Shown here piece by piece: positions 6,104 through 31,860 of a stretch of DNA of 64,000 nucleotides. A program made the translations under genes and the position numbers. Source of the DNA: a virus. Where the stretch lies: IMG/VR virus record IMGVR_UViG_3300013006_001433, positions 1 to 64,000 of that record. One strand, given 5' to 3'. The notes beneath the pieces were generated by a model. It was not told where the DNA came from, searched no databases, and worked only from the letters and a program-made list of their open reading frames with translations. Within the stretch, counting starts at the first letter, position 1. Every line of letters begins with the position of its first letter.

Positions 6104-6313
6104 TTATAATTCTTGAGAAGGATTCCTGATATCAAAAATAGAAGCTTTAGAAGATTCGTTTTTGTCATTTTTAACAACTACATTAGTTTCATCAAAAACT
6201 TCAATTACCTCTCCATAAAAGTGGTCTAAAGTGTTATAATTTGTTATAACTGCCACTCTTTTACCAAGCATTCTCTTCAAGACATTTAGTTTTTGTGTAT
6301 TTTTTTGTTTCAT
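6104..6313 (-). CDS. Hypothetical small beta-barrel-like protein (69 aa)
   Basis: A 69-residue protein: a basic helix (residues 1-18), then a strand-rich part, GKRVAVITNYNTLDHFYGEV followed by IEVFDETNVVVKND, which looks like a small SH3- or Sm-like barrel. Such folds often bind RNA or peptides, but this is inference from the strand pattern only. It is the first gene of a leftward unit (6313 to 3274) under its own promoter. Confidence 0.45.
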   Translation of the reverse strand: MKQKNTQKLNVLKRMLGKRVAVITNYNTLDHFYGEVIEVFDETNVVVKNDKNESSKASIFDIRNPSQEL

Positions 6314-6321
6314 CTTTTAGA

Positions 6322-6350
6322 ATTATATATTATATATTAGTTAATATCAA
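6322..6350 (-). promoter_or_regulatory. Early sigma-70 promoter, nearly leaderless
   Basis: Minus strand: TTGATA (6345-6350), 17-bp spacer, TATAAT (6322-6327), then 8 nt to the ATG at 6311-6313. It overlaps the end of the aminotransferase gene and splits the 11-3.3 kb cluster into two units. Confidence 0.7.
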
Positions 6351-7585
6351 GCTTTTTTCTTAATAAAAACTTTTTCTATTATTGATAATCCCTTGTCGCA
6401 TCCTTCTTTATCTATTGTCAAAGGCGGTAAAGCTATTAAAGAATTATTATCTCCAGAAGTGCACCACATCAATCCATTATTTATAAATTCAAAGAATAGT
6501 CTACCTACTAAATAAGTATTTGGTGTTCTGTCGACTTTATTGATTAATTCAACGGCTATCATTAATCCAATGCCCCTTACTTCTAGTGTTTCTTCTGGAT
6601 AATATTTTTTAAATAGTTTTTCTATATTCGTTCTTAAATACTCTCCCATTGTAATTGAATTTTCGCATAGCTTATCTTGTTCTATAATATCTATATTAGT
6701 TTTAGTTATACTAGTTGAGTATGGGGTCCAGGAGAAAGTAGCGGAAATATCTCCAAATTTATATTTTTTTAAATATTCTTCTTTCACAAGAACTGCTCCA
6801 ATTGCGGAATAACCAGAAGATACGCCTTTAGCAAGTATAATTGCATCTGGTTCAATTTTAAAATAATGCGAAGCAAGCATGTGCCCTATTCTTCCAAATC
6901 CAGTAATTGCTTCATCTAGGATAAGGAAAATATTTCTTTTTTTACATATTTCATAAAATTTTTTCCAATAATCTTTATGGGGTATAATAACTCCTCCGCT
7001 ACCTAAGATTGGTTCAGCTATAAATATTTTTATGTCTGGATTATTATCGAAAAATTCTTCTACTTCTTGCATGGATTCAGAATAGGAATTTGGCGGATCT
7101 AGTTTAATTGATTCATAACCTTTTCTAACGAATGGAAGTTTAAATTTTACTATTTCTCCCATTCCAAGCGTGGCTTGACTCCATCCATGATAAGATCTTT
7201 TGAATGTACCAATTTTGCCATTGGTTATATTAGAGAAAATTGATAAAGCTACTTCATTTGCATTTGCTCCACCAGTAGCTCTTAAACATTTATACTTAGA
7301 TTGTGGAAAAAAAGAAATTAACTTTTTAGCTAGTTCGTCAGCTTCTTGAGTAGGCATCCAAGGAGGGGCGTAATTTGATTTATTAATTTGCTTTATTTGA
7401 GCTTGTAGCATTTTAGGGTTCTGCCAACCAATATTGGCCACTCCATATCCTGCAGAAAAGTCAATATATTCTTTACCTTCTACGTCTATTAACGTATAAT
7501 TTTTGGCAGTTTCAAACGCTGCTGGAATTAAATAAGCAGATGCCATATTATTTTTTAATGATTTGTATAGCAATTTATTGTTCAT
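6347..7585 (-). CDS. Class III PLP-dependent aminotransferase
   Basis: The 412-residue protein has the class III (ornithine, GABA, glutamate-1-semialdehyde type) layout. GKEYIDFSAGYGVANIG is at the N-terminus, ATGGANANEVAL binds cofactor phosphate, LDEAITGFGR contains the PLP-pyridine Asp, and ILAKGVSSGYSAIGAV contains the Schiff-base Lys. Length is normal for the family. It moves an amino group between an amino donor and an aldehyde or ketone. Glutamate-1-semialdehyde aminomutase is a close relative and cannot be excluded. Next to an amidinotransferase, it could make the amine that becomes a guanidino group (inference). Confidence 0.8.
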   Translation of the reverse strand: MNNKLLYKSLKNNMASAYLIPAAFETAKNYTLIDVEGKEYIDFSAGYGVANIGWQNPKMLQAQIKQINKSNYAPPWMPTQEADELAKKLISFFPQSKYKCLRATGGANANEVALSIFSNITNGKIGTFKRSYHGWSQATLGMGEIVKFKLPFVRKGYESIKLDPPNSYSESMQEVEEFFDNNPDIKIFIAEPILGSGGVIIPHKDYWKKFYEICKKRNIFLILDEAITGFGRIGHMLASHYFKIEPDAIILAKGVSSGYSAIGAVLVKEEYLKKYKFGDISATFSWTPYSTSITKTNIDIIEQDKLCENSITMGEYLRTNIEKLFKKYYPEETLEVRGIGLMIAVELINKVDRTPNTYLVGRLFFEFINNGLMWCTSGDNNSLIALPPLTIDKEGCDKGLSIIEKVFIKKKA

Positions 7586-8344: not shown

Positions 8345-9103
8345 TTATTCTTTATCATCAAACCTTGCGACATAAGATATCATTCTAAAATGGGCTTTTC
8401 TTAAAGATTCTATTTTAGAGGTTTGATGATCCCGTTGGTGAAGGATTAATTTGTTTTCTAGTAATATTGCTCCAGAGGTTGGTATTAGTTCGTTTTGGCT
8501 TTTAAAAATTAATATATCTCCAACTTTTAAATCAGCAATAGATTGAGGATGAATTTTTTTAAAATTATTTTTTTGTAACCAGTCTTTTCTATATTCCCAT
8601 GTCCAAGATAGATTTTCGTCTGGTTTTTTTGATCTTTCTGGCTCTGGATCTGTTATGAAGATTTTTAATTCTTGAACAAGATGTCTTTCTAGAGTTGCCC
8701 AACAATCGTTTACCCCATTTTGGTAATTTAAATTAATGTATTTTTTATAATGAGAATATTTAATTGGATCAAAAAAATAAAATTTATTTTCTATAACATT
8801 ATAAAGAACATAAGGAATTTCAGTTTTTAAACTGGTATCTATATCTTCACTAGAAAAACCTCCTCCTTTTACATGAGAATGAAAGCACGCTAAAATGTCT
8901 CCTTTTTGTTCACATATTTTTTGATCCATCGGATTTATTAGAAATTTATTCCTTTTATCTAATGATATATTTTCACATTCTCGAATAAATATTTCTTTTT
9001 TAAAGATAGAAATATAAATTAATCCACAAAGTTCTTCCTTGGTGTTACTTAAGGAATACTCTTTGATTTTTTTTAATATATTTTTATTTAAAAGATTATG
9101 CAT
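8345..9103 (-). CDS. Tail assembly protein, JAB + NlpC/P60 (gpK-like copy b)
   Basis: The 252-residue protein has the two-domain plan of lambda gpK. The N-terminal JAB/MPN metalloprotease domain shows EELCGL and FHSHVKGGGFSSED (His-x-His ... Ser-x2-Asp). The C-terminal NlpC/P60 domain has GVNDCWATLE with the nucleophile Cys. At the catalytic His position the active copy upstream reads PTHGA, but this one reads PTSGA, so the peptidase domain may be dead. It is a tandem paralogue of the 9096-9857 gene, which it overlaps by 8 nt. In lambda, gpK acts at the tail tip during assembly or entry. Its place far from the tail operon is unusual. Confidence 0.7.
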   Translation of the reverse strand: MHNLLNKNILKKIKEYSLSNTKEELCGLIYISIFKKEIFIRECENISLDKRNKFLINPMDQKICEQKGDILACFHSHVKGGGFSSEDIDTSLKTEIPYVLYNVIENKFYFFDPIKYSHYKKYINLNYQNGVNDCWATLERHLVQELKIFITDPEPERSKKPDENLSWTWEYRKDWLQKNNFKKIHPQSIADLKVGDILIFKSQNELIPTSGAILLENKLILHQRDHQTSKIESLRKAHFRMISYVARFDDKE

Positions 9104-9857
9104 ACTTTTTATGTCTTAAAATATATGATATATATCTTGAGTGTCCTTTTCTAAAAGATTCTAAAGTAGAAATAAAATTATATCTTTGATGTAGAATTAA
9201 GTCGTTCTCTAGTAATAAAGCCCCATGAGTTGGTATATTTTCTTCAAAACCAGTAAAAACTATTATATCGTAAATTTTTAAGTCTTTAATAGTTTTTGGA
9301 TTTAAAACTTCAAATCCAACTCGATGATATTCACTTTCATATTTTTCAAGTGACCAAGCGTGTTCGTTAACAGTTTTAAGATCGTTATATGATAAGCCTA
9401 TCCTTTTTGGACTATTTTTTAAGCTTATATCTAAATCTAGTTCATTTTTATAAAAATCTACTATTAACGTTTCGCAATCTGTGACCCCTAATTCATAAGG
9501 TCTATTTATATATTTCTTGTAACATTCTTTTTCTTTTGGATCAAAAATATAAAATTTATCACTTTTAATATTATAAAGATAGTAAACAAGATTATGCTTA
9601 AAACTATTTACAATATCATGAAAAGAAAAAGATAAATTTTTAATATGGGAATGGAAACATCCTATTATATCTCCATATTGTTTTGCATATAGATAACATA
9701 ATGGATCTATAGCAAATGACTCCATTTTGCTTAAAGAGATATTTTTACTTTTTAAAAAGATTTTATTATTTTCTACCTGTACGACAAGACCGCAAGCTTC
9801 TTCTTTTTTATATTTTAATGCATGTTCCTTGGCTTGTATTAAAAAGTCATTTTCCAT
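9096..9857 (-). CDS. Tail assembly protein, JAB + NlpC/P60 (gpK-like copy a)
   Basis: About 253 residues from ATG 9855-9857 (MENDFLIQAKEHAL); an upstream ATG at 9872 would add five residues. The JAB/MPN part shows EEACGLV and FHSHIKNLSFSFHD. The NlpC/P60 part has GVTDCETLIVDFY (Cys) and IPTHGALLLEND (His), so both catalytic residues are present. The known role of the family is a tail-tip peptidase that helps assembly or opens peptidoglycan during DNA entry. The start overlaps the end of the IMPDH-like gene by 11 nt, so it is translated in the same operon. Confidence 0.7.
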   Translation of the reverse strand: MENDFLIQAKEHALKYKKEEACGLVVQVENNKIFLKSKNISLSKMESFAIDPLCYLYAKQYGDIIGCFHSHIKNLSFSFHDIVNSFKHNLVYYLYNIKSDKFYIFDPKEKECYKKYINRPYELGVTDCETLIVDFYKNELDLDISLKNSPKRIGLSYNDLKTVNEHAWSLEKYESEYHRVGFEVLNPKTIKDLKIYDIIVFTGFEENIPTHGALLLENDLILHQRYNFISTLESFRKGHSRYISYILRHKKYA

Positions 9858-10956
9858 GAGCAAAACCTTCATACATGCTGTTGGGGCTATTTCTCACTGC
9901 TTGTATTGTGTCATTCCATAGTCCACCTCGCATATCTTGTAGATTTCTGAATCCTAAATAACTCATAGCACTTCTTAAGCCATTAGTAAAATCATAAACT
10001 ATGTCCTCTATAGTTTTATTTTCTACAATAGGAATAAGAGTATTATCTCCTTCAACAAAAAGATTTTTCTTTGTCCCATCGTGAAGGTCATAATCTTCGA
10101 CAACGTCTTGACTTGCCATTCCTCTATACTTAGCGAATCTTTTTCCATCTATTTCAATAATATTTTCATCATCAACTACATCAGCTAATCCAGCAAAAAT
10201 TCTTCCACAAATAACTGCGTCGCATCCACTAGCAATAGCTTTAACTAAATCCTTTGGATAACGAATACCGCCATCAGCAAGTATACTTGGTCTATGTTCT
10301 GGATTGGGTTTGTCTTGTTTGAATAGATCAACTTGCGACAACTCCCAATTCCTTACGGCTTTCCAAGCGTAATAATTTCCAGTTAAACTCGGACATCCAA
10401 TTCCAGTTTTTACTTGAGTTAAACACATCGAACCTGGTCCAATCAAGTGTCTAAACCCATCTGCTTTTAAATTCGCTAATCTATAAACACTTTCTTTAGT
10501 TAAAGTATTACCGACAATGACATCTTGAGAAAATCCAGAAGTTTTATACCATCTAAGAAAATCTTCAACATTCTTGGCCAAACCATTAGCAGTATCCAAA
10601 AAGTAAATATTTGTAAATGCGCTAGTAGCTCTAATTCTTTCTTCTGCGTCTTTTAAACCAATGGCTGTAACACAAAAATTACTTTCATCTTTAATAATTT
10701 TAGCTTTTACTCTTTGGTCGTCAATGGACATAAATCTATGTAATACTCCTGCTGCGCCAAGTTTATTAATTTTAATACAAGATTTAACTGAAGATACAGT
10801 ATCCATTGGGGAAAGAATAATTGGAATTTTAATATTACAATTCCTTGATATCTTAGTAGTTGTATCTACCTCTTTCCTAGAGGTTATATCTGAAAAATTT
10901 GGGAGTAATGAAATATCATCGTAACTTAAGGCTTCTTTGAATTCTTGTTTTTGCAT
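9847..10956 (-). CDS. guaB: IMP dehydrogenase/GMP reductase family protein
   Basis: The 369-residue TIM-barrel protein has LSYDDISLLPNFSD at the start, LSPMDTVSS (the IMPDH SPMDTV motif), and the active-site loop IGPGSMCLTQVKTGIGCP with the catalytic Cys. ILADGGIRYPKDLVKA and YRGMAS follow, with an IMPDH-like C-terminal segment. The CBS regulatory pair of bacterial IMPDH is absent, which explains the short length. IMPDH makes XMP on the way to GMP; GMP reductase runs the related reverse step. The motifs fit either, with IMPDH slightly favoured. It heads the leftward metabolic operon behind the promoter at 10969-10997. Together with purA it covers both branches leaving IMP. Confidence 0.8.
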   Translation of the reverse strand: MQKQEFKEALSYDDISLLPNFSDITSRKEVDTTTKISRNCNIKIPIILSPMDTVSSVKSCIKINKLGAAGVLHRFMSIDDQRVKAKIIKDESNFCVTAIGLKDAEERIRATSAFTNIYFLDTANGLAKNVEDFLRWYKTSGFSQDVIVGNTLTKESVYRLANLKADGFRHLIGPGSMCLTQVKTGIGCPSLTGNYYAWKAVRNWELSQVDLFKQDKPNPEHRPSILADGGIRYPKDLVKAIASGCDAVICGRIFAGLADVVDDENIIEIDGKRFAKYRGMASQDVVEDYDLHDGTKKNLFVEGDNTLIPIVENKTIEDIVYDFTNGLRSAMSYLGFRNLQDMRGGLWNDTIQAVRNSPNSMYEGFAHGK

Positions 10957-20318: not shown

Positions 20319-21182
20319 ATGGTAACAAATAAAAAGATATTATGGATATCTGATTATAGCTTATCCCATTCTGCTGGAGGAGCCCAAAGAAGTAATGATA
20401 TAATTATCCAAAAAGGCAGAGAATTAGGATATTCTATATTAGAAGCAAATTATAATTTTAATTTCAATATTGAAGATTTTAATCAATATGATATATTAAT
20501 TTCATCCAATTTAGAAGCAATATACAAATTGCATTCTAATATCATAGATAAAATAGCTTCTCACAAGTATCATGTTAGACTTGAGCACGATTCAAATAGA
20601 TACTTGAAACAAGAAGATAGAGAAAAACTTTTTAGATCTTGTAAAAAGACAGTATTTTTAACTAATTTTCATCATAAGTTATTTATTAATAATTATGGAA
20701 ATATTTTTAATGATGTAAAAATCGTAGCGGATCCTATAGATACAGATTTATTCTACAATCAAAACCAAGAAAGAGAAGACAAGATTTTATACGTTGGATT
20801 TATGCATGAGCTAAAAGGCACATTATCGTTTTTTGAATTTGCTATGGACAACCCTCAATTACAATTTGTAGTTGCTGGATGGGGAACAAGAGTTTTTAAT
20901 TTTTTGGCGACCAATACTCCTAATGTACAATATCTAGGAACAGTCTCCCACGAAGAAATGCCTAAGCTTTTTAATAAATATGAAACACTTTTTTATAATC
21001 CAATTATACCAGAACCATTCTGTAGATCAGTTGCGGAAGGTGCATTGTGTGGAATAAAATTAATGTCATCTAGTTCAAATATTATAGGATGTATGCACGA
21101 ATTTCGAGAGTTAGGTAAAGAAAAATTTATTGAAAATTGCAAAAATGCTTCTAACTATTTTTGGGAATCAATTATACAGTAA
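20319..21182 (+). CDS. Glycosyltransferase, GT4-like
   Basis: A 287-residue GT-B-fold protein. The N-terminal domain opens KKILWISDYSLSHSAGGAQR, with the Gly-rich acceptor loop. The C-terminal domain has ILYVGFMHELKGTLSFFEFA and PEPFCRSVAEGALCG, the E-x7-E donor-binding motif of GT4 retaining enzymes. It is slightly shorter than usual for the family. The first gene of the sugar island, it overlaps the next by one base (TAATG). Donor and acceptor are unknown. Confidence 0.75.
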   Translation: MVTNKKILWISDYSLSHSAGGAQRSNDIIIQKGRELGYSILEANYNFNFNIEDFNQYDILISSNLEAIYKLHSNIIDKIASHKYHVRLEHDSNRYLKQEDREKLFRSCKKTVFLTNFHHKLFINNYGNIFNDVKIVADPIDTDLFYNQNQEREDKILYVGFMHELKGTLSFFEFAMDNPQLQFVVAGWGTRVFNFLATNTPNVQYLGTVSHEEMPKLFNKYETLFYNPIIPEPFCRSVAEGALCGIKLMSSSSNIIGCMHEFRELGKEKFIENCKNASNYFWESIIQ

Positions 21183-22096
21183 TGACTATTATATTAGTCA
21201 TAAATAAAACTCTGTCTAGGGGAACAAATTCACATCTAGATTCTGGATATTATAATTTTTATATACCATTACTAGAATTAGGACACAAAGTATTTTTATA
21301 CGACACGATAAAAGGAAATGGAAAACCATTTCAAAATTTAGTAAAAGAAGTTAATCCAGATCTTATTATTTCTATATTGACTGGAAATAAAAACTTAACG
21401 CCATACGAGCCAATAGAAGAAATAGAATCTATAACGAAAGAAAACAAAATAAAGACATTTAATTGGTTTTGCGATGATACATGGAGATTTGATACTTTTA
21501 ATAAAAATATTTGTAAAAAATTTACAGTATGTTCAACACCAGAAGCGAATTATATAAGTAAATACAAACAAGAAGGATATAATAATATATTATTAGGTCT
21601 ATGGCATTGTAATCAAGACTTAAGAGTAGATTCAGATAAAGTATTAAATGTCACTTTTTGCGGCGGGCTGACAAATTCCAGAGCACAAAACTTTAATTAT
21701 CTATCGCAAAATAATGTAGATTTAAAATATTTTCATGGATTATCTTATGAAGACGTCTTAAAAGCTTACTCTATATCTAAAATTGGATTAAATTTAACGG
21801 TAAATGATAATGATGTAGATAAAAAACCTCAAATGAAATTAAGAATATTTGAAATTCCAGCTTCTAAAACATTTCTGTTAACCGAGTATATAGACGATCT
21901 TGAAAATTACTTTGATATTGGGAAAGAAATCGAAACTTTTAAAACTATAGAAGAAGCAAAAGAAAAAATTAATTTCTATTTAAAAAACGATTCAGCTAGA
22001 GAAAATATTGCTAATGCTGGTTATCAAAGATTTTTAAGAGATCATACTTCTAAAATTAGATTAAATAATATAATAAATCAGATAGAAACCTTATGA
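21182..22096 (+). CDS. CgeB-like glycosyltransferase
   Basis: About 304 residues from ATG 21182, which overlaps the previous stop. It resembles the CgeB/Glycos_transf_1_2 group: NWFCDDTWRFDTF (the W-x-x-D-D pattern), VTFCGGLTNSRAQNF, and a C-terminal region with KLRIFEIPASKTFLLTEYID, where a conserved R-x-FE lies before the final domain. It probably transfers a sugar within the same glycan as its neighbours. It overlaps the next gene by 4 nt (ATGA). Confidence 0.65.
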   Translation: MTIILVINKTLSRGTNSHLDSGYYNFYIPLLELGHKVFLYDTIKGNGKPFQNLVKEVNPDLIISILTGNKNLTPYEPIEEIESITKENKIKTFNWFCDDTWRFDTFNKNICKKFTVCSTPEANYISKYKQEGYNNILLGLWHCNQDLRVDSDKVLNVTFCGGLTNSRAQNFNYLSQNNVDLKYFHGLSYEDVLKAYSISKIGLNLTVNDNDVDKKPQMKLRIFEIPASKTFLLTEYIDDLENYFDIGKEIETFKTIEEAKEKINFYLKNDSARENIANAGYQRFLRDHTSKIRLNNIINQIETL

Positions 22097-22992
22097 GAAT
22101 TTATATACAGTTTCATCCCGCCCATGCAGGAAAATGGATTTATAATGGATACGCACACGCATGGTTGTATCATGGATTTGAAGTTAAATTTATTAAATCA
22201 TTAAATGAAATAGATCAAAATGAACCCTATCATTTGATGATAACAGATGGTATAATTTCTGAAAATAATATTCAATTTCTAGAAAAAAGCATTAAAACTA
22301 TTCTATATGTATCACCAAATTTCTATCCAAAACCATGGGGAGATCATCCAAATTGGAAATGCCCACTTAATGAAAACCTTATAGATAAAATTAATCAACT
22401 ACCAAATATAATTAAATGGAATTTTTCAGATGTAAAAAATCAATTTTTCTTTATTTGGAAAAATGTAATTACATTACCATTAGCATTTGATAATATAAAT
22501 TATTCTAATTCAATAAAAGATAAATATGAATATGACGTTTGCTATATTGGTGGTTTAGCTGATAATGGATTTAATGAAAAAATAAAAATAATGCAAGATA
22601 CATTGACTCCATTTTTAGACACAAAATTGAAATGCGCTTTTTTCGTTGCTCAGAACTTGTCTCACGAACAAGAAAATTATATATTAAATAACTCTAAAAT
22701 AGCTTTAAATATACATGACGAATACCAAAGAGTAAATCAATTAGATTGTAATGAAAGAACCTTTAAGGGGTTAGGAGCAAATGGTTTCTTAGTGAGTGAT
22801 AAAATAGAACAATTAAATAGACTTTTTCCACATGTTTTTATGTCAAACAATCCGCAAGAATTAGTTAATTTTTGTTTAGACTTTGCATCGAAAGATGCGA
22901 ATCATATAAATGAAGAAAAATTAAAAAATCAAAAAATGATTGAGTCTAGCCATACTTATATTAAAAGAGTAGAGTATTTATTAAAAATATGA
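22093..22992 (+). CDS. CgeB-like glycosyltransferase, divergent
   Basis: A 299-residue protein. The C-terminal half parallels the CgeB group: YDVCYIGGLADNGFNEKI, SKIALNIHDEYQRVNQLDCN and ERTFKGLGANGFLVSDKIE, the region that normally includes a conserved R-x-F-E and donor site. The N-terminal half (MRIYIQFHPAHAGKWIYNGY) is weakly similar to other GT-B domains. Overlaps of 4 nt on both sides place it firmly in the island operon. Sugar and acceptor unknown. Confidence 0.55.
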   Translation: MRIYIQFHPAHAGKWIYNGYAHAWLYHGFEVKFIKSLNEIDQNEPYHLMITDGIISENNIQFLEKSIKTILYVSPNFYPKPWGDHPNWKCPLNENLIDKINQLPNIIKWNFSDVKNQFFFIWKNVITLPLAFDNINYSNSIKDKYEYDVCYIGGLADNGFNEKIKIMQDTLTPFLDTKLKCAFFVAQNLSHEQENYILNNSKIALNIHDEYQRVNQLDCNERTFKGLGANGFLVSDKIEQLNRLFPHVFMSNNPQELVNFCLDFASKDANHINEEKLKNQKMIESSHTYIKRVEYLLKI

Positions 22993-23714
22993 AAATCAAT
23001 ATTTTTATACCTAACTATAACAAAGAAAATTTTGTTCTAAAATGCCTATCTTCGTGCTTAAATCAAACGCATAAAGATTTAAAAATTATTTTTATAGACA
23101 ACGAAAGTAAAGATAATAGTTTAGATTTAGTTAAAAAATTTCGAGATGAAAATAAATATGACTTCACGATAGATAGTGCTAAAAATATTTATCCAAGATG
23201 TTGGGAAGAATGTATATACAAAGCTTTAGAATATTTCGATGGAGATTTCTTTACAATTGTTGGTTCAGATGATTGGCTTGATCCAAATTATATTGAAAAC
23301 TTTTGCAAATGGTTAGAATTTAAAAATAAAGAGATTTTAATAGCTCAATCGGCTTTACTTTGGATGAAGGATGGAGCAAGAGTTAACTTAGTCAACCATC
23401 CCTATTCTAATATTGAAGAATTAAAATTGAAGTTAACATTAGGCTGTTACGTTAATACTCCGACTGTTTTCTTTAATAAAGAACTTGTGAAAAATGGCCT
23501 TTACAGAACTTATCCAAAACTTTATAGTGGAGCAGCAGATTATGATTTATATTGTCAACTAGTAGATAAAAATATATATATAGAAAATATTGGAGAATGG
23601 ATCGGATATTGCTATAATATTAATGATACTCAAGCAACTTGGCAAATGCATGGGGATACAATTAATTATTCAAATGTTATTCGTAAAAAATGGAGAGACA
23701 AATGGAAGATCTAA
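22989..23714 (+). CDS. Glycosyltransferase family 2
   Basis: A 241-residue GT-A protein: INIFIPNYNKENFVLKCLSS with SCLNQTHKDLKIIFIDNESK is the classic GT2 start, and TIVGSDDWLDPNY (about residues 92-104) is the DxD-type metal-nucleotide motif. There is no membrane segment. GT2 enzymes are inverting transferases of O-antigen and similar glycans. It overlaps the next gene by about 25 nt if that gene starts at its first ATG. Confidence 0.8.
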   Translation: MKINIFIPNYNKENFVLKCLSSCLNQTHKDLKIIFIDNESKDNSLDLVKKFRDENKYDFTIDSAKNIYPRCWEECIYKALEYFDGDFFTIVGSDDWLDPNYIENFCKWLEFKNKEILIAQSALLWMKDGARVNLVNHPYSNIEELKLKLTLGCYVNTPTVFFNKELVKNGLYRTYPKLYSGAADYDLYCQLVDKNIYIENIGEWIGYCYNINDTQATWQMHGDTINYSNVIRKKWRDKWKI

Positions 23715-25015
23715 ATAATATTCTAAATTTGGTTAAATCTTATATAGATAATAAACCTAATACTTGGGAACCTGGAAAAGACTGGGTCCAATATGCTGGA
23801 CCATTTTTTGATTCTACGGAATATACTTCAGCAATTAGTACGCTATTAAATGGGTGGTTAGTACTTGGAGAAAAAGGCATTTCATTTGAAAATCAATTTC
23901 CTAAACTTTTAAATAAAGAATATGGAATATTAACTAATAGCGGAAGTAGTTCAAATTTAATAATGATGTCAGCAATGAAATCAAAAAGATTATATAATTT
24001 TCCAAATGGAACAAAAGTAATTACTCCAATCGCTGGATTCCCAACCACAATAAACCCTATATTTCAAGTTGGATTTACCCCAGCTTTTGTAGACATCGAC
24101 TTAGATACTCTTAATTTAAACTTAGATCAAGTAGAACAACAAGCCAAAAATGGTGCAAAAATTATTACATTCGCTCATGTATTAGGCAATCCACCAAATA
24201 TGAGAAGACTTATGGATATTATAAAAGAATATAATTTAATCCTACTAGAAGATTGTTGTGACGCTTTAGGATCAACATACGACAATAAACCTCTTGGTAG
24301 TTTTGGAGAATTCGCTAGCTGTTCATTTTATCCAGCACATCATATGACAATGGGAGAAGGTGGGTTCATAGCATGTAACACTTATAATCAAGAAGTTGTA
24401 ATTAGAAGTTTTAGAGAATGGGGAAGAGGATGCTATTGTGTTGGTAAAAAAGCTAATCTATTAAAAAATGGCACATGTAAAAATAGATTTTCTAATTGGT
24501 TGCCCTCTATACCAGATGAAATTTTTGATCATAAATATATCTATGATGAAATTGGTTATAATTTAAAACCTATAGAATTACAAGCAGCAATAGGGTTATG
24601 CCAAATGAAAAAGCTTCCAGAAATTCATACTCGTAGAAAATTAAATCATATGAGATTAGTTAAAATATTTAGTGAGTTTGAAGAATATTTTATATTACCA
24701 AAAGCTACAGACTGGGCAGATCCAAGTTGGTTTGCTTTTGCGTTAACCATTAAAGATAATGCACCATTCAAAAGGAAAGATATTGTACATTATCTTGAAG
24801 ATAACAAAATACAAACAAGACCATATTTTGCTGGTAATATTATGTTGCAACCAGCTTATGATGGACTTATGGATAAAAATGAAGTAATTAATAAATTTCC
24901 AGTATCAAGAAAAGTAACAACTGACACTTTCTTTCTTGGTACAAGTCCAGTTATAGGAGAAAAACAATTAGATTATATAGAAAATACAGTATATAATTAT
25001 TTCAAAACATTATGA
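23690..25015 (+). CDS. NDP-4-keto-6-deoxyglucose 3-dehydrase, E1/RfbH type
   Basis: A DegT/DnrJ/EryC1-family protein of 441 residues (or 437 from the ATG at 23702). The position that holds PLP-binding Lys in aminotransferases is His here (FYPAHHMTMGEGG, about residue 218). This is the hallmark of sugar 3-dehydrases. Cysteines at about 190, 248, 250 and 263 reproduce the C-x57-C-x-C spacing of the iron-sulfur E1 enzyme that makes 3,6-dideoxyhexoses. Together with a reductase it removes the C3 hydroxyl of CDP-4-keto-6-deoxyglucose. The neighbouring 4,6-dehydratase would make its substrate. A dedicated E3 reductase is not seen in the window. Confidence 0.8.
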   Translation: MERQMEDLNNILNLVKSYIDNKPNTWEPGKDWVQYAGPFFDSTEYTSAISTLLNGWLVLGEKGISFENQFPKLLNKEYGILTNSGSSSNLIMMSAMKSKRLYNFPNGTKVITPIAGFPTTINPIFQVGFTPAFVDIDLDTLNLNLDQVEQQAKNGAKIITFAHVLGNPPNMRRLMDIIKEYNLILLEDCCDALGSTYDNKPLGSFGEFASCSFYPAHHMTMGEGGFIACNTYNQEVVIRSFREWGRGCYCVGKKANLLKNGTCKNRFSNWLPSIPDEIFDHKYIYDEIGYNLKPIELQAAIGLCQMKKLPEIHTRRKLNHMRLVKIFSEFEEYFILPKATDWADPSWFAFALTIKDNAPFKRKDIVHYLEDNKIQTRPYFAGNIMLQPAYDGLMDKNEVINKFPVSRKVTTDTFFLGTSPVIGEKQLDYIENTVYNYFKTL

Positions 25016-25965
25016 AAGTAGTATACATAACAGGATGCCTTGGTTTTATAGGTTCTTATATAACTAGATTATCCTTAAATAAGGGTTGGCATGTTAAAGG
25101 CGTAGATAAAATAACATACGCCGCAAACCAAGATCTTCTTAAAGAGTTTAATAAGTATCCAAATTTTTCATTTGTTCATTGTGATATAAATGATCTTAAG
25201 TTTTTGTACGATTGCGATTATATTATCAATACCGCAGCAGAAACTCATGTTGGCAACTCAATAAGCAATAGTGACGATTTTATACATTCAAATATTGATG
25301 GTGTGCATAATTTATTAGAATTAATTAGAAACTACAGACAAGAGCATACAACTGTTCCTACTTTAATACATTTTAGTACAGATGAAGTTTATGGAGATGT
25401 TGATCATGGAGCGCATACAGAGAAAGACCTATTGAAACCATCAAATCCATATTCAGCAACAAAAGCAGCCGCAGACATGTTAATCTTAGCATGGGCAAGA
25501 ACTTATAAAACAAACTATATAATTGTAAGACCAACGAACAATTATGGAATTGGTCAATATGTAGAAAAGCTTATTCCTAAAGCATGCAAGTATTTAAATT
25601 TAGGCAGAAAAATACCATTACATAATTCTGGATCACCCATTAGAAATTGGCTTCATGCAGAAGATACCGCAAATGCAATTATAAAAATTATTGAAAGTAA
25701 TGTTAAAAATGAAATATATAATATTGCAGGTGGATTTGAACAATCAAATCTTGATACAGTCAAAAAAATCTTAGAGATATATCTGAATACAAAAGATTTT
25801 AATTTAGTAGATTACATAGATCTTTCATATTCTAGACAAGGACAAGACGTTAGATATGCTCTAGACGACACCAAATTAAGAAGTTTAAATTGGAAATCGA
25901 ATAAAGTCTTTGACGAGGAAATAAAAAGCATAGTTGATTATTACAATAATAAATTTATATGGTAA
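25012..25965 (+). CDS. NDP-glucose 4,6-dehydratase-like SDR
   Basis: A 317-residue extended SDR: YITGCLGFIGSY is the NAD-binding GxxGxxG motif, HFSTDEVYGD carries the Thr-Asp-Glu of RmlB-type dehydratases, and NPYSATKAAADML is the YxxxK catalytic pair. It removes water from NDP-glucose to give the 4-keto-6-deoxy sugar. The nucleotide (dTDP or CDP) cannot be told from motifs; the E1/RfbH-type gene next to it suggests CDP. It overlaps both neighbours by 4-7 nt. Confidence 0.82.
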   Translation: MKVVYITGCLGFIGSYITRLSLNKGWHVKGVDKITYAANQDLLKEFNKYPNFSFVHCDINDLKFLYDCDYIINTAAETHVGNSISNSDDFIHSNIDGVHNLLELIRNYRQEHTTVPTLIHFSTDEVYGDVDHGAHTEKDLLKPSNPYSATKAAADMLILAWARTYKTNYIIVRPTNNYGIGQYVEKLIPKACKYLNLGRKIPLHNSGSPIRNWLHAEDTANAIIKIIESNVKNEIYNIAGGFEQSNLDTVKKILEIYLNTKDFNLVDYIDLSYSRQGQDVRYALDDTKLRSLNWKSNKVFDEEIKSIVDYYNNKFIW

Positions 25966-26585
25966 AAGAAGATTTAATAAATTTTGAAAAAGAAATAGCT
26001 GATCTATTTAATTCTGGTCAGATAAAATCTCCAGTTCATCTTTATTCTGGAAACGAAGATCTTATGATCGAAATTTTTAAAAACATTGATATTGAGAATG
26101 ATTGGGTATGTTCCGCATGGCGTAACCATTATCAAGGTTTATTAAAAGGAATACCTCAAGACATATTAAAGCAAAATATTATACAAGGTAAATCTATGGT
26201 AGCTAATTTACCACAATATAAATTTATATGCAGTTCTATAGTTGGAGGGATTCCTTCAATTGCAGCGGGTATTGCGATGTCAATTAAAGTTAAAAATAAA
26301 ACTAATAAGGTTTGGTGTTGGGTTGGCGACATGTCTTCTGAAACTGGCGCTTTTCATGAGGCTTACAAATATAGTTTAAATCATGATCTTCCAATTACAT
26401 TTATAATTGAGGATAACAAGAAATCGGTATGTTCGCCAACTCAAAGGATTTGGAACAGAGAAAAGCCATATTATTTAGATAAAGATTATACTGGAGGTCT
26501 ATTAGTTCAAAAAAATTTAATATACTACCAATATGACAATCAAAAATATCCTCATGCTGGAGCAGGGAAAAGAGTACAGTTTTAA
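25959..26585 (+). CDS. Thiamine-diphosphate enzyme, E1 alpha-like subunit
   Basis: A 208-residue protein resembling the alpha subunit of 2-oxoacid dehydrogenase E1 enzymes but shorter (usually about 320-360). The diagnostic part is WVGDMSSETGAFHEAYKYSL followed by LPITFIIEDNKKSVCSPT, the GDG(M) ... N thiamine-diphosphate/Mg motif. An adjacent beta-like gene completes the pair. Such split enzymes decarboxylate a 2-oxo acid and transfer the aldehyde unit. Between a 3-dehydrase and an SDR, the likely job is adding a two-carbon branch to a sugar, as in yersiniose synthesis (inference). Confidence 0.7.
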   Translation: MVKEDLINFEKEIADLFNSGQIKSPVHLYSGNEDLMIEIFKNIDIENDWVCSAWRNHYQGLLKGIPQDILKQNIIQGKSMVANLPQYKFICSSIVGGIPSIAAGIAMSIKVKNKTNKVWCWVGDMSSETGAFHEAYKYSLNHDLPITFIIEDNKKSVCSPTQRIWNREKPYYLDKDYTGGLLVQKNLIYYQYDNQKYPHAGAGKRVQF

Positions 26586-26589
26586 TTTT

Positions 26590-27126
26590 ATGAAATACTT
26601 TGAAGAACTTAAAAAAGCAATGACCATGCTATCTGAGCATCCCGATACTCTTTTTATAGGACAATCCATAGAATATGAGGGAACTGGTCTTTATGATTCG
26701 TTAACTCATATACCAGCTCATAAAAAAATAGAACTACCAGTAGCAGAATATCTTCAAGCGGGCCTAGCGAATGGAATGGCAATAGAAGGTATAATTCCAA
26801 TATCTACTTATCCAAGATGGAATTTTTTATTAATGGCAACAGATCAAATAGTAAATCATTCAGATAAATTCAAAGAAATGTCAAATGGAAAATGTCTTCC
26901 TAAATTAATAATTCGCGTTGCGGTTGGTAGCGAAAGGCCAATAGATCCACAATGTCAACATAAAGGAAATTTTTCAGAAGCATTTAGACTGATGATGAAC
27001 AATACAGAAATAATTGAATTGAAAGAACCAGAAGAAATTTTGCCAGCATATATAAAAGCATTAAATAGAAATGATGGAGTTATTACAATACTTGTAGAAT
27101 TTGCAGATTACTCAAAAGAAAAATAA
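26590..27126 (+). CDS. Thiamine-diphosphate enzyme, E1 beta-like subunit
   Basis: About 178 residues from ATG 26590, four bases after the alpha stop. A longer start at 26533 would overlap alpha by 50 nt. The segment ELPVAEYLQAGLANGMAIEG is the conserved Glu and helix of E1 beta/transketolase pyrimidine domains, which activates thiamine diphosphate. LLMATDQIVNHSDKFKEMS and LIIRVAVGSERPIDPQCQH follow the E1 beta pattern. The C-terminal transketolase domain is largely missing, so this is a pyrimidine-domain-sized protein. It should form the active site with the alpha protein. Confidence 0.7.
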   Translation: MKYFEELKKAMTMLSEHPDTLFIGQSIEYEGTGLYDSLTHIPAHKKIELPVAEYLQAGLANGMAIEGIIPISTYPRWNFLLMATDQIVNHSDKFKEMSNGKCLPKLIIRVAVGSERPIDPQCQHKGNFSEAFRLMMNNTEIIELKEPEEILPAYIKALNRNDGVITILVEFADYSKEK

Positions 27127-27141
27127 CTTTTACAAATTAAT

Positions 27142-27972
27142 ATGAAAATTTTTTTAACTGGAAGTAATGGTTATATAGCTAAAAATATATACGAATACTT
27201 TAAAGATCGATATGTTTTCTTTCTAGCTAACAGAGAATCAGTAGATCTTACAAACATAAATGATTTGAAAAACAAAATAACAAATTTTAAGCCAGATATA
27301 ATTATTCATACAGCAATAGAAGGAGGCAGGAGAAATGAAGCTGATACAGCAGATATGGCTTATAGGAATATATTGATTTTTGAAAATTTAATATCCTTTA
27401 AAGAGCAAGTTAAATTTATTTTTAATATTGGATCTGGAGCAGAATTTGATAGGTCTAGAAATATTTCTTACGCAAATGAAGAGGATATATTTTCTGTATT
27501 ACCAATTGATTATTATGGATTTTCTAAAAATTTAATATCAAGAAAGATAAATATTTTAAATTCAAATATAATAAATTTAAGAATATTTGGCATCTTTAAT
27601 CATAAAGAATTAGTCTCTAGATTTATAAAAACTAATATTTTGAAAATTCACGAAAACGAAGAACCAATTATACATGAAAATAAATATATGGATTATATAT
27701 ACATGGACGATTTTTTAGAAGCATTAAAATATTACTTAAATATTGAAAAACCAAAATACAAAGATATTAATATATGTTACGAAAAAAAATATAAGTTAAC
27801 AGATTTAATTAATTTAATATATATAAATTTTAATAAAAAACAAAGAATAGATCAATATATGGTAAATGGATTAAGTTATACTGGAAATGGATCTAAAATA
27901 AATTCTTTAAATTTGCCATTTAAAGGAATAGAATATGGTATGAAGGAAATGATTAAAAATATTATAAAATGA
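27142..27972 (+). CDS. NAD(P)-dependent sugar epimerase/reductase (SDR)
   Basis: A 276-residue extended SDR with KIFLTGSNGYIAKNI (GxxGxxA nucleotide site), IGSGAEFDR around the catalytic Ser, and YYGFSKNLIS (YxxxK). The C-terminal substrate domain is short and Ile/Asn/Lys-rich. It could reduce or epimerise the product of the preceding enzymes, for example the 4-keto or branched sugar; its position suits this but the exact reaction is unknown. It overlaps the next gene by 4 nt. Confidence 0.65.
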   Translation: MKIFLTGSNGYIAKNIYEYFKDRYVFFLANRESVDLTNINDLKNKITNFKPDIIIHTAIEGGRRNEADTADMAYRNILIFENLISFKEQVKFIFNIGSGAEFDRSRNISYANEEDIFSVLPIDYYGFSKNLISRKINILNSNIINLRIFGIFNHKELVSRFIKTNILKIHENEEPIIHENKYMDYIYMDDFLEALKYYLNIEKPKYKDINICYEKKYKLTDLINLIYINFNKKQRIDQYMVNGLSYTGNGSKINSLNLPFKGIEYGMKEMIKNIIK

Positions 27973-28769
27973 AAAATACAGCCTGCTTCTTCTACTCAGA
28001 CTCAGAAAAATATTCAAAATTACTAGAATGCGCAATGAACAGCTTTGAAAAATTTCATCCAGATATACCGATTATTCTATTAACAAGAAAAGACCCAAAT
28101 ATTTATCAAGCAGTAGATAAATTTCAGCAAGCATTAAATATATGTTTGTATAATAATTATGAAAAGGCAATTTTTCTTGGTGCGGATACTATAACATGCT
28201 CAAGGCTTGATGAGTTTCTAGAATCCGAAGAGGACATACTTGCCACGTTAGATTATCCTTATAGATTAGTTACAAAATATGTAGCAACTCCAGATGATCA
28301 AACACATGTCAACGCTGATGTATTATGTATTAATAATTTATCATTTATGTACAAACTTTGTGAGATAACCACGAAATGTCCAACAGAATATTGGGAACAA
28401 GGAGCACTCAATCAAATAATTTGGAATAGAATTAATAATTATTCTTGTAGAATAATAGATGCGCCGTATAATACATCAAAAATTATCTATAATACCAGAG
28501 CAAAAGGAAATATAATTGCGCAATCTGGAGAAAAGCCATGGCATAATTATACCCAGCATTGGAAAGTCTCGGATAATAAACTATACTCGCATGACAATAA
28601 ACAAATTAAAGTTTTTCATTATTGCGAAGGTCTTGGCACACTTAATAATGATAAATTTGAAGAGATAATAAATTACTGGATAGATACAGCTTTTAATAAA
28701 GAAAGCAAAGCATTTTTTGAAGAATATTGTAATTGCGGTGATTTTTTTAAAAAGCAATTCAAAATATGA
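27969..28769 (+). CDS. GT8-like / nucleotide-diphospho-sugar transferase
   Basis: A 266-residue GT-A-fold protein. The motif AIFLGADTITCSRLDEFLES (about residues 67-86) is the DxD-type donor site of GT8-like enzymes. HVNADVLCINNLSFM and EYWEQGALNQIIWN continue the usual order (product-side Asn and the ExGxxNQ motif). HYCEGLGTLNN near the end may be the distal His metal ligand. It transfers a sugar to an unknown acceptor. It overlaps both neighbours by 4 nt. Confidence 0.65.
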   Translation: MKNTACFFYSDSEKYSKLLECAMNSFEKFHPDIPIILLTRKDPNIYQAVDKFQQALNICLYNNYEKAIFLGADTITCSRLDEFLESEEDILATLDYPYRLVTKYVATPDDQTHVNADVLCINNLSFMYKLCEITTKCPTEYWEQGALNQIIWNRINNYSCRIIDAPYNTSKIIYNTRAKGNIIAQSGEKPWHNYTQHWKVSDNKLYSHDNKQIKVFHYCEGLGTLNNDKFEEIINYWIDTAFNKESKAFFEEYCNCGDFFKKQFKI

Positions 28770-29683
28770 AGATTTTAATAACTGGTGGAACAAGCATGGT
28801 CGGGAAACACCTTAAAAAGTATTTACCTAATGCAATTTATTTATCCAGCAAAGATTGCGATTTATTTGATAGCAAAAAAACTAGAGAACTTATATTAGAT
28901 ACAAAACCTAATAAAGTAGTGCATTTAGCCGCGAAAGTTGGCGGAATAATGGACAACATATCTAACCCAGTAGGATTTTTTGAAGATAATATATTTATGA
29001 ATACAAATGTTTTAAAATATTCATATGAAGCAAAAGTAGATCAATTCATTGGTATTCTCAGCACATGCATCTATCCAGATCAAGTTTCAGATAATCTCTA
29101 TCCAATGAAAGAAGATTTATTGCATTTGGGACCACCAACTCCAACTAACTTTTCTTATGGCTACGCTAAAAGATGCTTGGCCGTTCAAATTGATGCTTAT
29201 AATAAACAATTTAATACAAACTACAATTATCTAACGCCTTGCAATTTATATTCAGAGCACGATCATTTTGAAGGAAATAAAGCTCATTTCTTATCTAGCT
29301 TAATTCATAAGATTTATCAGGCTAAAATTAATAATACCAAAGAAATTAATTTAATGGGCTCTGGATCCCCTTTAAGGCAATTTATGTATGCGGATGATTT
29401 AGCCAGAGTAATACATTTATTTATTGAAAATAACATTATTGAAAATTGTAACGTATGCACAGATGAAGTTAAAACTATTAAAGAAATTGCAGAAATAGCC
29501 TTAAAAGCTTGCGATGCTTCGGATATTGATTTGGTATGGGATACTACTAAGCCAGATGGTCAATACAGAAAAGATGCATCTTCAGATAAACTATTAAACA
29601 TTTTTAAAGATTTTAAATTTACTTTTTTAGAGAATGGAATCAAAAACACATATAATCAATATGTGGAAGCTAAACGAGTCTAA
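28766..29683 (+). CDS. colC: GDP-L-colitose / GDP-L-fucose synthase-like SDR (ColC-like)
   Basis: A 305-residue SDR of the GDP-fucose synthase type: KILITGGTSMVGKHL, AAKVGGIMDN, LSTCIYPD, YGYAKR (YxxxK) and KPDGQYRKDAS near the end. GDP-fucose synthase and ColC carry out C5 epimerisation and C4 reduction on a GDP-4-keto sugar. Because the adjacent genes are a His-type 3-dehydratase (ColD) and GMD, I read it as the ColC-like step giving GDP-L-colitose rather than GDP-L-fucose. The symbol is inferred from context. Confidence 0.72.
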   Translation: MKILITGGTSMVGKHLKKYLPNAIYLSSKDCDLFDSKKTRELILDTKPNKVVHLAAKVGGIMDNISNPVGFFEDNIFMNTNVLKYSYEAKVDQFIGILSTCIYPDQVSDNLYPMKEDLLHLGPPTPTNFSYGYAKRCLAVQIDAYNKQFNTNYNYLTPCNLYSEHDHFEGNKAHFLSSLIHKIYQAKINNTKEINLMGSGSPLRQFMYADDLARVIHLFIENNIIENCNVCTDEVKTIKEIAEIALKACDASDIDLVWDTTKPDGQYRKDASSDKLLNIFKDFKFTFLENGIKNTYNQYVEAKRV

Positions 29684-30806
29684 CTTTACTTTAAAAGATA
29701 AGTGTAAAATAGCCAAATTCTTCTTTCAAAAGAAAGATATGTGGACTATGGGCGATCAAGTTAAAACATTTGAACGCAAAATGGCGAAATTTGCTAGTTC
29801 AAAATATGCTGTATTTGTAGCGAATGGTTCAGTTGCTAATACTTTAATAGCCATGTATCTAAAAGACAAAGTATATAAACCAAATAAAAATATAATAGTA
29901 TTTCCATCTACAACGTGGGTCACATCGGTTTCGCCATTCATCAGAGAAGGTTTTACCCCAGAATTTATTGATATTAACCTAGATGATTGGTCAATTGACT
30001 TAAACAGCCTAGAAAAATTTTTAAAATCTAAAGCTGAACATGTAGCTTGCATTTTTATCACAAGCCTTCTTGGGTATACTCCAAATATTAATAAAATCAA
30101 AGAATTATCAGAAAAATACAAGGTAAAAGTAATGATGGATAATTGCGAAAATACTTTTGGCGAATTTGAAAATAAAAATGTTAGTTCTTTTTTTACTTCT
30201 ACGACTAGCACTTACTTTGGGCATCAACTGCAAAGCGTTGAAGGTGGTTTTGTTTTTACGGATTGCAAGGATGAATATGAATATTTTTTAATGGCAAGGA
30301 ATCACGGCATGTCAAGAAGCGTGCCAGATCCAAAGCCTTTTCTAAATAAAAATGTAGATTCAAGATTTGATTTTCATTTATTAGGCAATAATTTCAGAAA
30401 CACTAATATTCACGCATTTATTGGGCTTCTAGACTTTGAAAGAATATCATTTTATATAGAAGAAAGAATTAAAATATACAAATACTACGAAAGCAAATAT
30501 CAACACGCAGATTTATTACCTAAATATTTTGATGACAGACTGCATGTACCATTTTGTATACCAATTATTTGCAAAAGCAAAGAAGAAAGAGATAAGGCTT
30601 TAGAGTTTTGCAGATATAATCATATTGAAACAAGACCTATAATTTCTGGCAATTTACTAAAACAAACATGTTTTCAAAAATATGGAGATTATAAAAAATA
30701 TAAAAATAGCGAATTTTTGGATCAATACGCTTTTTACGTTGGCCTTCATAGTAAAGTAAATAAAAATATTTTAGATAAACTGCTAAAATATCTCAATAAT
30801 ATCTAA
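29661..30806 (+). CDS. colD: GDP-4-keto-6-deoxymannose 3-dehydratase (ColD-like)
   Basis: A DegT/AHBA-family protein of 381 residues from ATG 29661; an ATG at 29634 adds nine. The Lys that binds PLP in aminotransferases is replaced by His in TYFGHQLQSVEGGF. With the chosen start this is His188, the same number as the catalytic His of E. coli ColD. It lacks the Cys set of the iron-sulfur E1 enzyme, as ColD does. It removes the 3-OH of GDP-4-keto-6-deoxymannose using PLP and glutamate. GMD directly downstream supplies the substrate, and the SDR upstream would finish the colitose pathway. Confidence 0.8.
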   Translation: MWKLNESNFTLKDKCKIAKFFFQKKDMWTMGDQVKTFERKMAKFASSKYAVFVANGSVANTLIAMYLKDKVYKPNKNIIVFPSTTWVTSVSPFIREGFTPEFIDINLDDWSIDLNSLEKFLKSKAEHVACIFITSLLGYTPNINKIKELSEKYKVKVMMDNCENTFGEFENKNVSSFFTSTTSTYFGHQLQSVEGGFVFTDCKDEYEYFLMARNHGMSRSVPDPKPFLNKNVDSRFDFHLLGNNFRNTNIHAFIGLLDFERISFYIEERIKIYKYYESKYQHADLLPKYFDDRLHVPFCIPIICKSKEERDKALEFCRYNHIETRPIISGNLLKQTCFQKYGDYKKYKNSEFLDQYAFYVGLHSKVNKNILDKLLKYLNNI

Positions 30807-30807
30807 T

Positions 30808-31860
30808 ATGAAGAAAATTATTATAACTGGTGTTAGTGGTCAAGACGGTTCTTATATGGCGGAACATTGTTTAGCTTTGGGGCATAAAGTCTACGGGATA
30901 GTAAGAAGGTCATCTAATCCAAATTATAGTAATTTAATTAATGTAATTAATAATGCTAATTTTAAATTTGTTTATGCAGATTTATCTGATTTTTCATCCA
31001 TTGAAAATGCAATAAGAGAAATAGAACCAGATTATTTTATTAATTTTGCCGCTCAATCTTATGTAGGCGCAAGCTGGGTAATGCCAGAGCAAACATTTGA
31101 TATTACTGCCATGGGTGTTTTAAGATGTCTAGAAGCTATTAGAAAAAATTCTACAAAATGTAAATTCTATAGTGCTGGATCTAGCGAAGAAATGGGAAAT
31201 GTTGAATACAGCCCACAGGATCTTAAGCATCCATTGAAACCAAGATCTCCATATGGAGCAGCAAAAGCAGCTGCTAGACATATAACTAAAGTTTATAGAG
31301 AGTCTTATAATTTATATGCAATTCACTGTATTTTATATAATCATGAAAGCGAAAGACGAGGAGAAGAATTTGTAACTAGAAAAATAACAAAAGGCGTAGC
31401 AAGAATTAATTATGCCTTAAAAAATAAACTACCATTCGAACCAATTGAATTAGGAAATTTAGATTCAAAAAGAGATTGGAGCCATGCTAAAGATTTTGTT
31501 GAAGGAATATGGGAAATGCTTAATCAAGAATCTCCAAAGGAATATATTCTTTCTTCAAATGAAACTCATAGTATCAGAGAATTTGTAGAAAAATCATTTA
31601 AAAATATTGGTATTGATGGACATTGGATTTATATAAATGATGGCAGACCAGAAGACGAAGGATATTATCTAAAAGATAATAATGGCAATCATGTACTATT
31701 GGTTAAAGTTAATCCCAAATTTTATAGGCCAGCAGAAGTCGATCTATTATTAGGAGACTCTTCTTTAGCTAGACAAGAGCTAAATTGGGAGCCTAAAATT
31801 TCATTTGACAATCTAGTAAAAAGAATGGTAGAATGGGACGTTGAAAATTACAAACCATAA
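30808..31860 (+). CDS. gmd: GDP-mannose 4,6-dehydratase
   Basis: A 350-residue SDR with ITGVSGQDGSYMAEHCL and YGIVRRSS (NADP binding), NFAAQSYVGASW, a Ser/Ser-Glu catalytic site (AGSSEEMGN), and RSPYGAAKAAA (YxxxK). ILYNHESERRGEEFVTRKIT and GNLDSKRDWSHAKDFV are strong GMD signatures. It turns GDP-mannose into GDP-4-keto-6-deoxymannose, feeding the ColD-like enzyme. GDP-mannose must come from the host, since no mannose-1-phosphate guanylyltransferase is seen here. Length is normal. Confidence 0.92.
   Translation: MKKIIITGVSGQDGSYMAEHCLALGHKVYGIVRRSSNPNYSNLINVINNANFKFVYADLSDFSSIENAIREIEPDYFINFAAQSYVGASWVMPEQTFDITAMGVLRCLEAIRKNSTKCKFYSAGSSEEMGNVEYSPQDLKHPLKPRSPYGAAKAAARHITKVYRESYNLYAIHCILYNHESERRGEEFVTRKITKGVARINYALKNKLPFEPIELGNLDSKRDWSHAKDFVEGIWEMLNQESPKEYILSSNETHSIREFVEKSFKNIGIDGHWIYINDGRPEDEGYYLKDNNGNHVLLVKVNPKFYRPAEVDLLLGDSSLARQELNWEPKISFDNLVKRMVEWDVENYKP

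Follow-up and report, generated by a model that had tools for sequence, protein, structure and literature searches.

Which sugars would a virus make with a set of nucleotide-sugar genes, and what would it use them for? The question is raised by the first 64,000 nucleotides (hereafter the window) of the IMG/VR virus record IMGVR_UViG_3300013006_001433, an incomplete record of 78,158 bases whose phage identity is backed by genes for a lambda-J-like tail protein J, a DNA polymerase, a ribonucleotide reductase and a sigma-like factor. An earlier note on this DNA had singled out three genes at 28766-31860 as a phage-encoded GDP-colitose pathway. They are the 3'-most genes of a larger island (20319-31860), which probably constitutes a phage module for the activated forms of two 3,6-dideoxysugars that are rare constituents of bacterial surface polysaccharides, namely colitose and a C-branched sugar related to yersiniose, together with the glycosyltransferases attaching them to, most likely, a host surface glycan. 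Related loci carry L numbers below; the viral ones are partly near-duplicates (L029/L030, L015/L016), and the counts given here therefore refer to loci, which need not represent independent events.

A predicted GDP-colitose trio

The three genes lie on the same strand in the following order:

28766-29683, + strand: GDP-fucose-synthase (GFS)/ColC-like 4-keto epimerase-reductase, 305 amino acids (PDB 4e5y, 9.3e-63; catalytic residues)
29634-30806, probable start 29661, + strand: ColD-like GDP-4-keto-6-deoxymannose 3-dehydratase (PDB ColD, 2.8e-43; Foldseek; active-site residues; tree)
30808-31860, + strand: GDP-mannose 4,6-dehydratase (GMD), 350 amino acids (NCBIfam gmd; PDB; SSE and YxxxK motifs)

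All three were found where the earlier note had placed them, and their residues and relatives confirm the families it had named. What it described as short overlaps or gaps is an overlap of 50 nt between the GFS- and ColD-like genes (23 nt if the latter starts at 29661), followed by a gap of 1 nt before GMD. An independent assembly (L004, 95-98% identical) carries the ColD-GMD pair arranged as in the window and the whole trio is syntenic in L025 and L026, so the arrangement is neither due to chance nor an assembly artefact.

Sequence, predicted fold, tree and active site together confirm the central gene as a ColD-type enzyme, with 3-dehydration as its predicted activity. The real start is suggested to be the internal ATG at 29661, giving a protein of 381 amino acids, both by homology and by the L004 open reading frame, which was called from the equivalent ATG. 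The best solved relatives were four ColD sequences, with Escherichia coli ColD at 2.8e-43 and approximately 30% identity, and in Foldseek searches with the predicted fold ranks 1-11 were all ColD (TM 0.84-0.85). In the tree, the protein grouped with E. coli ColD, apart from the E1/RfbH enzymes (clade support 100/99). The lysine that anchors pyridoxal 5'-phosphate (PLP) is replaced by histidine, as H197 aligns with ColD H188, a column located by means of the H188N and H188K mutant ColD chains. Also kept (ColD numbering) are S57, W88, D159, E162, S183, R219, N248, R250 and E329, which are active-site positions in ColD; at W88, E162, R219, R250 and E329 the E1/RfbH enzymes instead have F, D, C, K and G/Q. 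ColD S187 is replaced by Gly and H189 by Gln, as in the closest viral relatives. A Lys-type sugar aminotransferase such as GDP-perosamine synthase was ruled out for this gene, since the Lys column holds His.

The GMD protein matched the NCBIfam gmd model at 1.3e-107 (360 bits, slightly under the equivalog cut-off of 415) and solved GDP-mannose 4,6-dehydratases at 5.5e-90, with the catalytic SSE and YxxxK motifs present. For the GFS-like protein, the closest solved relative was human GDP-L-fucose synthase (9e-63), and S99, C101, Y131, K135 and H174 align with the catalytic S107, C109, Y136, K140 and H179, the latter in E. coli Fcl numbering. Its membership of the GDP-fucose-synthase family is distant (200 bits; equivalog cut-off 500); it is nearer to the human-type GFS than to E. 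coli Fcl, and is likened to ColC by role and not by sequence.

This set of GMD, a His188-type ColD and a GFS/ColC-like enzyme, with glycosyltransferases nearby, fits the route from GDP-mannose to GDP-colitose that the earlier note had proposed. GMD would convert host GDP-mannose into GDP-4-keto-6-deoxy-D-mannose, from which the ColD-like enzyme, dependent on pyridoxamine 5'-phosphate and glutamate, would take off the 3-hydroxyl group; C5 epimerisation and C4 reduction by the GFS/ColC-like short-chain dehydrogenase/reductase (SDR) could then give GDP-L-colitose. Gene families and catalytic residues make GDP-colitose the best prediction for the product, with the last step the more conjectural part, as the specificity of the terminal enzyme did not follow from them. 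Several observations weigh against the proposal: the catalytic residues of the GFS-like enzyme are common to ColC and GDP-fucose synthase, so its specificity is not readable from sequence; in virus L027 a 64%-identical GFS directly adjoins GMD, with no 3-dehydratase in the 23-kb contig; and L005 and L006 carry ColD-GMD without a neighbouring GFS. An alternative is that the trio makes GDP-L-fucose, to whose synthases the terminal enzyme is nearest, and that the ColD-like enzyme diverts only part of the intermediate or serves a separate sugar. We consider this unlikely, since the other viral loci of this GFS clade (L022, L025, L026, L028-L030 and L032; L031 is cut) have GFS and GMD separated by a His-type ColD. 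In L022, L028-L030 and L032 this ColD belongs to a different His-type subclade (approximately 32% identical), and the fact that the gene order outlasts such a replacement argues for a single pathway. The distant family match and the L027 pairing nonetheless leave some room for GDP-fucose as product or by-product, next to the favoured GDP-colitose. No report of phage colitose genes was found among the open-licence papers searched, which is weak evidence of absence.

A probable second dideoxysugar set with a split ThDP enzyme

The interval given in the earlier note holds the trio only. Next to it, at 23690-27972, lies a second dideoxysugar set that makes up the more unusual half of the island. 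Upstream of the trio, the island consists of:

20319-21182, + strand: predicted glycosyltransferase (Pfam Glycos_transf_1, 1.9e-5, just under the cut-off; syntenic in L025)
21161-22096, + strand: predicted glycosyltransferase (Glyco_trans_1_2, 2.4e-25; syntenic in L025)
22093-22992, + strand: predicted glycosyltransferase (Glyco_trans_1_2, 2.5e-10; syntenic in L025)
22989-23714, + strand: family 2 glycosyltransferase (Pfam Glycos_transf_2, 6.4e-20; syntenic in L025)
23690-25015, + strand: RfbH/E1-type nucleoside diphosphate (NDP)-4-keto-6-deoxyhexose 3-dehydratase (NCBIfam RfbH, 452.7 bits, cut-off 423; PDB 3bcx, 6.6e-99; E1 clade)
25012-25965, + strand: RmlB-like NDP-glucose 4,6-dehydratase (NCBIfam match; adjoins the thiamine diphosphate (ThDP) enzyme genes in nearly all viral loci)
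25959-26585, + strand: E1-alpha-like subunit of a ThDP enzyme, ThDP-binding half, 208 amino acids (Pfam E1_dh, 1.2e-15; fold; motif)
26533-27126, + strand: E1-beta-like subunit of a ThDP enzyme, pyrimidine domain only, 197 amino acids (pyruvate dehydrogenase E1 beta, 4.4e-13; Transket_pyr, 3e-5, under the Pfam cut-off)
27142-27972, + strand: RmlD-like SDR, candidate branch reductase (Pfam Epimerase, 1.4e-18; weak RmlD PDB match; 3' of the ThDP genes in viral loci)
27969-28769, + strand: putative glycosyltransferase, a role suggested by sequence and place (syntenic in L025, 71%; no Pfam match at 1e-3)

The RfbH-like protein has His217 in place of the PLP lysine and keeps all four cysteine columns of the Yersinia E1 2Fe-2S site; the loop before the last cysteine is longer. 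The RmlB-like protein scored 295.7 bits with the dTDP-glucose 4,6-dehydratase model (below its cut-off of 365), compared to 77.8 for the CDP-glucose enzyme, which makes a dTDP sugar likely. The AlphaFold model of the E1-alpha-like subunit (pLDDT 87) retrieved alpha-keto-acid dehydrogenase E1 alpha, and not transketolase, in 50 of the 50 Foldseek matches listed, and its G123-D124...N153 motif is invariant. The E1-beta-like subunit, assigned to its family by sequence only, has a Glu that aligns with that of the E1-beta 'PISE' motif.

Together, these enzymes may produce a branched sugar. The RmlB-like enzyme would provide NDP-4-keto-6-deoxyglucose, and the RfbH/E1-like 2Fe-2S enzyme would strip the 3-hydroxyl group, with a host reductase supplying the electrons. 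Pyruvate could then serve the split E1-alpha/beta enzyme as donor of a two-carbon (acetyl) unit for the C4 ketone, and the SDR, which may have a YerF-like role, would reduce the branch, leading to a yersiniose-type 3,6-dideoxy-4-C-(1-hydroxyethyl)hexose. Against this stand the small size of the ThDP subunits and their low identity to solved enzymes (approximately 20-25%), as well as two missing partners: an E3-type reductase (PF00175) gave no match in the window's partial record or nine related virus records, and no NDP-sugar pyrophosphorylase (PF00483) was found in the 78-kb record. As neither was found, both are assumed to be supplied by the host.

Exchange of ThDP enzymes across loci

The genomic neighbourhood of the split ThDP pair was compared across loci. 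The pair, of the window clade or its relative in L023, occurs in 13 loci (the window, L013-L023 and L025), and a His-type 3-dehydratase accompanies it in 11 of these, the other two (L018 and L019) being short contigs. Among the closest cellular ThDP relatives whose contigs extend into the next gene (42-49% identity), a His-type 3-dehydratase lies immediately downstream in L035 and L036 (Verrucomicrobia) and L037 (Acidimicrobiales); in L034, the downstream gene is cut before the His/Lys position. In the window, L022, L025, L026, L029/L030 and L032, a ColD-type enzyme co-occurs with an enzyme of the RfbH type or of an alternative His type.

The slot itself is not always filled by the same enzyme. 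In L026, the position between RmlB and SDR holds, with other genes, a JanthE/YerE-type enzyme of 575 amino acids instead of the split pair. Its best solved relative was 8rph (4.6e-113, compared to 1e-67 for acetolactate synthase), an entry cited in a paper on the engineering of JanthE (PMC12188165), which is a YerE-like branching enzyme (PMC12247030). In L029/L030, the slot is filled by a split transketolase. The DC, alpha-KADH2 and TK groups are the three ThDP superfamilies that have been tied to sugar branching (review PMC12247030). A tentative interpretation, for which we would not yet claim even chances, is that a family of environmental phages shares a cassette for C-branched 3,6-dideoxysugars with an exchangeable centre. 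Its 4,6-dehydratase/3-dehydratase and its reductase would be constant, with three unrelated classes of ThDP carboligase (E1-alpha/beta, YerE/JanthE-type and split transketolase) having taken each other's place between them, and the cassette would usually be coupled to the colitose trio. Phages would thus create and diversify branched surface sugars, some of them not known from bacteria.

ThDP-pair relatives at 40% were also found in cyanophages S-SM2 and P-TIM68 and in a 735-kb phage. Those of S-SM2 and P-TIM68 sit among heptose-type genes (sugar kinase, nucleotidyltransferase and phosphoheptose isomerase), which counts against sugar branching and means that other ketol transfers are conceivable. 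The pair might accordingly be a ketol transferase of the transketolase or acetoin type, with sugar phosphates or small metabolites as its substrates. We regard this as improbable, as the window ThDP clade adjoins an RmlB-like and/or a His-type 3-dehydratase gene in the loci seen, a JanthE-like branching enzyme occupies the same slot in L026, and the alpha-subunit fold is that of E1-alpha and not of transketolase; a sugar-branching role remains the preferred one.

Three further observations were made in these loci. A separate class of His-type 3-dehydratase (SFYASHVITAGGxGG), which lacks the E1 cysteines, replaces RfbH in L014 (4999-6141), L020 (5862-7022), L029 (10996-12144) and L032 (10997-12139). 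In L026 (3089-5523), an HpcH-like aldolase, an SDR and an AroB-like cyclase lie beside the JanthE-like enzyme and may provide a longer keto-acid donor. L036 (5986-11343; Verrucomicrobiae) carries an epimerase, a nucleotidyltransferase, a GHMP-type kinase, the split ThDP pair and a His-type 3-dehydratase, which could amount to a separate branched-sugar pathway.

Selection and genomic place

Ratios of non-synonymous to synonymous substitution rates (dN/dS) were obtained for the window versus L004 or L013; comparisons with L025 were left out, being near synonymous saturation. The island genes are under strong purifying selection, with values of 0.05 for ColD, 0.02 for GMD, 0.13 for RfbH, 0.05 for RmlB, 0.05 for ThDP alpha and 0.08 for ThDP beta, compared to 0.02-0.03 for RecA in the same comparisons. 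That such genes are non-functional filler DNA for headful packaging is a possibility left open for the lipopolysaccharide (LPS) clusters of cyanophages (PMC3037559). For the island it is extremely improbable: the dN/dS values largely refute it, and the genes contain no stops and have intact catalytic residues.

The island is a tightly packed, mostly overlapping gene run that continues into a RecA-like gene, and its place is kept in L004, L005 and L025-L027; in L013, GMD and a nucleotidyltransferase fusion stand in place of the downstream half. The layout suggests early expression together with the replication genes.

Acceptor and host

The most likely acceptor of the sugars is a glycan of the host cell surface, with transfer early in infection. 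Decoration of the virion or the phage DNA instead, which the earlier note had also raised, received no specific support in this analysis. Several glycosyltransferases are present and no Wzx/Wzy-type gene was recognised among the scanned proteins, both of which would suit such a role. It nevertheless appears doubtful, considering that the island shares its direction and its overlaps with RecA-like and DnaB-like genes and not with structural genes, in a place conserved across the loci named above, and that no base-hypermodification gene was recognised. The host surface is accordingly the preferred acceptor. As to which host this may be, a search for Bacteroidota-type promoters was uninformative (4 matches, 3.6 expected), and searches with replication proteins gave distant matches only. 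Across the whole window, there is no Shine-Dalgarno signal above background (6 of 59 gene starts, 5.2 expected) and leaders are A-rich; the host may thus be one that does without Shine-Dalgarno sites.

Relation to known systems

The trio resembles the GDP-colitose pathway of E. coli, Salmonella and Yersinia (GMD, ColD and ColC) in its neighbouring GMD, His188-type PLP 3-dehydratase and GFS-like epimerase/reductase, with the ColD active site kept. It differs in being viral, in its approximately 30% identity to E. coli ColD and in its position beside a second dideoxysugar set. This second set in turn follows the logic of the yersiniose A pathway of Y. pseudotuberculosis O6/O12 (CDP-glucose, E1/E3, YerE and a reductase), as it comprises a 4,6-dehydratase, an Fe-S RfbH/E1-type 3-dehydratase, a ThDP C-C ligase and a reductase. 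The likeness is one of pathway logic, since a split E1-alpha/beta pair stands in for the single-chain flavoprotein YerE as ThDP enzyme, the 4,6-dehydratase is dTDP-like, and the window's record lacks recognisable E3 and pyrophosphorylase genes. In yersiniose A synthesis, YerE adds activated acetaldehyde to CDP-3,6-dideoxy-4-keto-D-glucose (PMC12247030). Yersinia pseudotuberculosis O6 has an O antigen with both colitose and yersiniose A (PMC8533242) and is thus a cellular precedent for the sugar pair predicted here.

Split E1-like pairs have been proposed or shown to branch sugars in antibiotic pathways (PMC4753412, PMC12247030); for AviB1/B2 and Pau11/12, the proposed reaction is the addition of a C2 branch (PMC4753412). 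Like these alpha-KADH2 enzymes (AviB1/AviB2, Pau11/Pau12 and KbDH), the ThDP enzyme of the window is E1-like, consists of two subunits and is encoded next to a deoxy-keto-sugar pathway, a likeness of class and not of direct sequence comparison. In contrast to them it is viral, belongs to an apparently polysaccharide-type pathway and is short (208 and 197 amino acids), with a beta subunit that lacks the C-terminal transketolase domain.

Large LPS gene clusters have long been known in cyanophages, their function being left open (PMC3037559). GMD-GFS-His-type ColD trios are present in cyanophages S-CAM7 and ACG-2014f (approximately 50 records), where their annotations read 'nucleotide-sugar epimerase' and 'aminotransferase', and RfbH-like genes at approximately 40% are found in other cyanophages. 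The window shares phage nucleotide-sugar genes with the LPS-type clusters of S-CAM7, ACG-2014f, S-SM2 and P-TIM68; these, however, belong to T4-like phages of 190-226 kb, their trio is 29-44% identical, and no RfbH-RmlB-ThDP-SDR cassette lies beside the trio in the stretches read. Phage trios of this kind are thus already known, and what is new is the combination, the viral split ThDP branching-type enzyme and the exchange of ThDP classes.

That related viruses swap parts of the set points to viruses as agents that remodel and diversify surface sugars, and that vary them by exchanging ThDP enzymes. The island would also place sugar-branching ThDP carboligases in viruses, including the E1-alpha/beta class, which a review describes chiefly from antibiotic producers. 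Concrete names can now be given to cyanophage genes filed as 'aminotransferase' or 'nucleotide-sugar epimerase'. Moreover, the question of function versus stuffer DNA in phage LPS-type clusters becomes directly testable, owing to intact catalytic residues, synteny over several virus lineages, strong purifying selection and two specific, measurable predicted products.

Other genes in the window

A tmRNA gene, of a kind discussed for phages (e.g. PMC9004378), was found at 1514-1899 on the + strand (Rfam RF00023, 106 bits), with the predicted tag AKTAKYKGHVSARVSLVEMAESVA, whose ending is unusual. On the - strand, a PurA-like protein of 330 amino acids (3274-4266) and an IMPDH/GMP-reductase-like protein (9847-10956) point to phage purine metabolism. 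PurZ, and with it a Z-genome, was ruled out for the former because the catalytic Asp of GDEGKGK is kept; the PurZ model scored 101 against a cut-off of 300. Also on the - strand, 4488-7585 encodes a protein of 392 amino acids that by eye resembles amidinotransferases, together with a class III aminotransferase, and 8345-9872 holds two tandem JAB/minor-tail-protein homologues of near-equal size, probably the result of a duplication.

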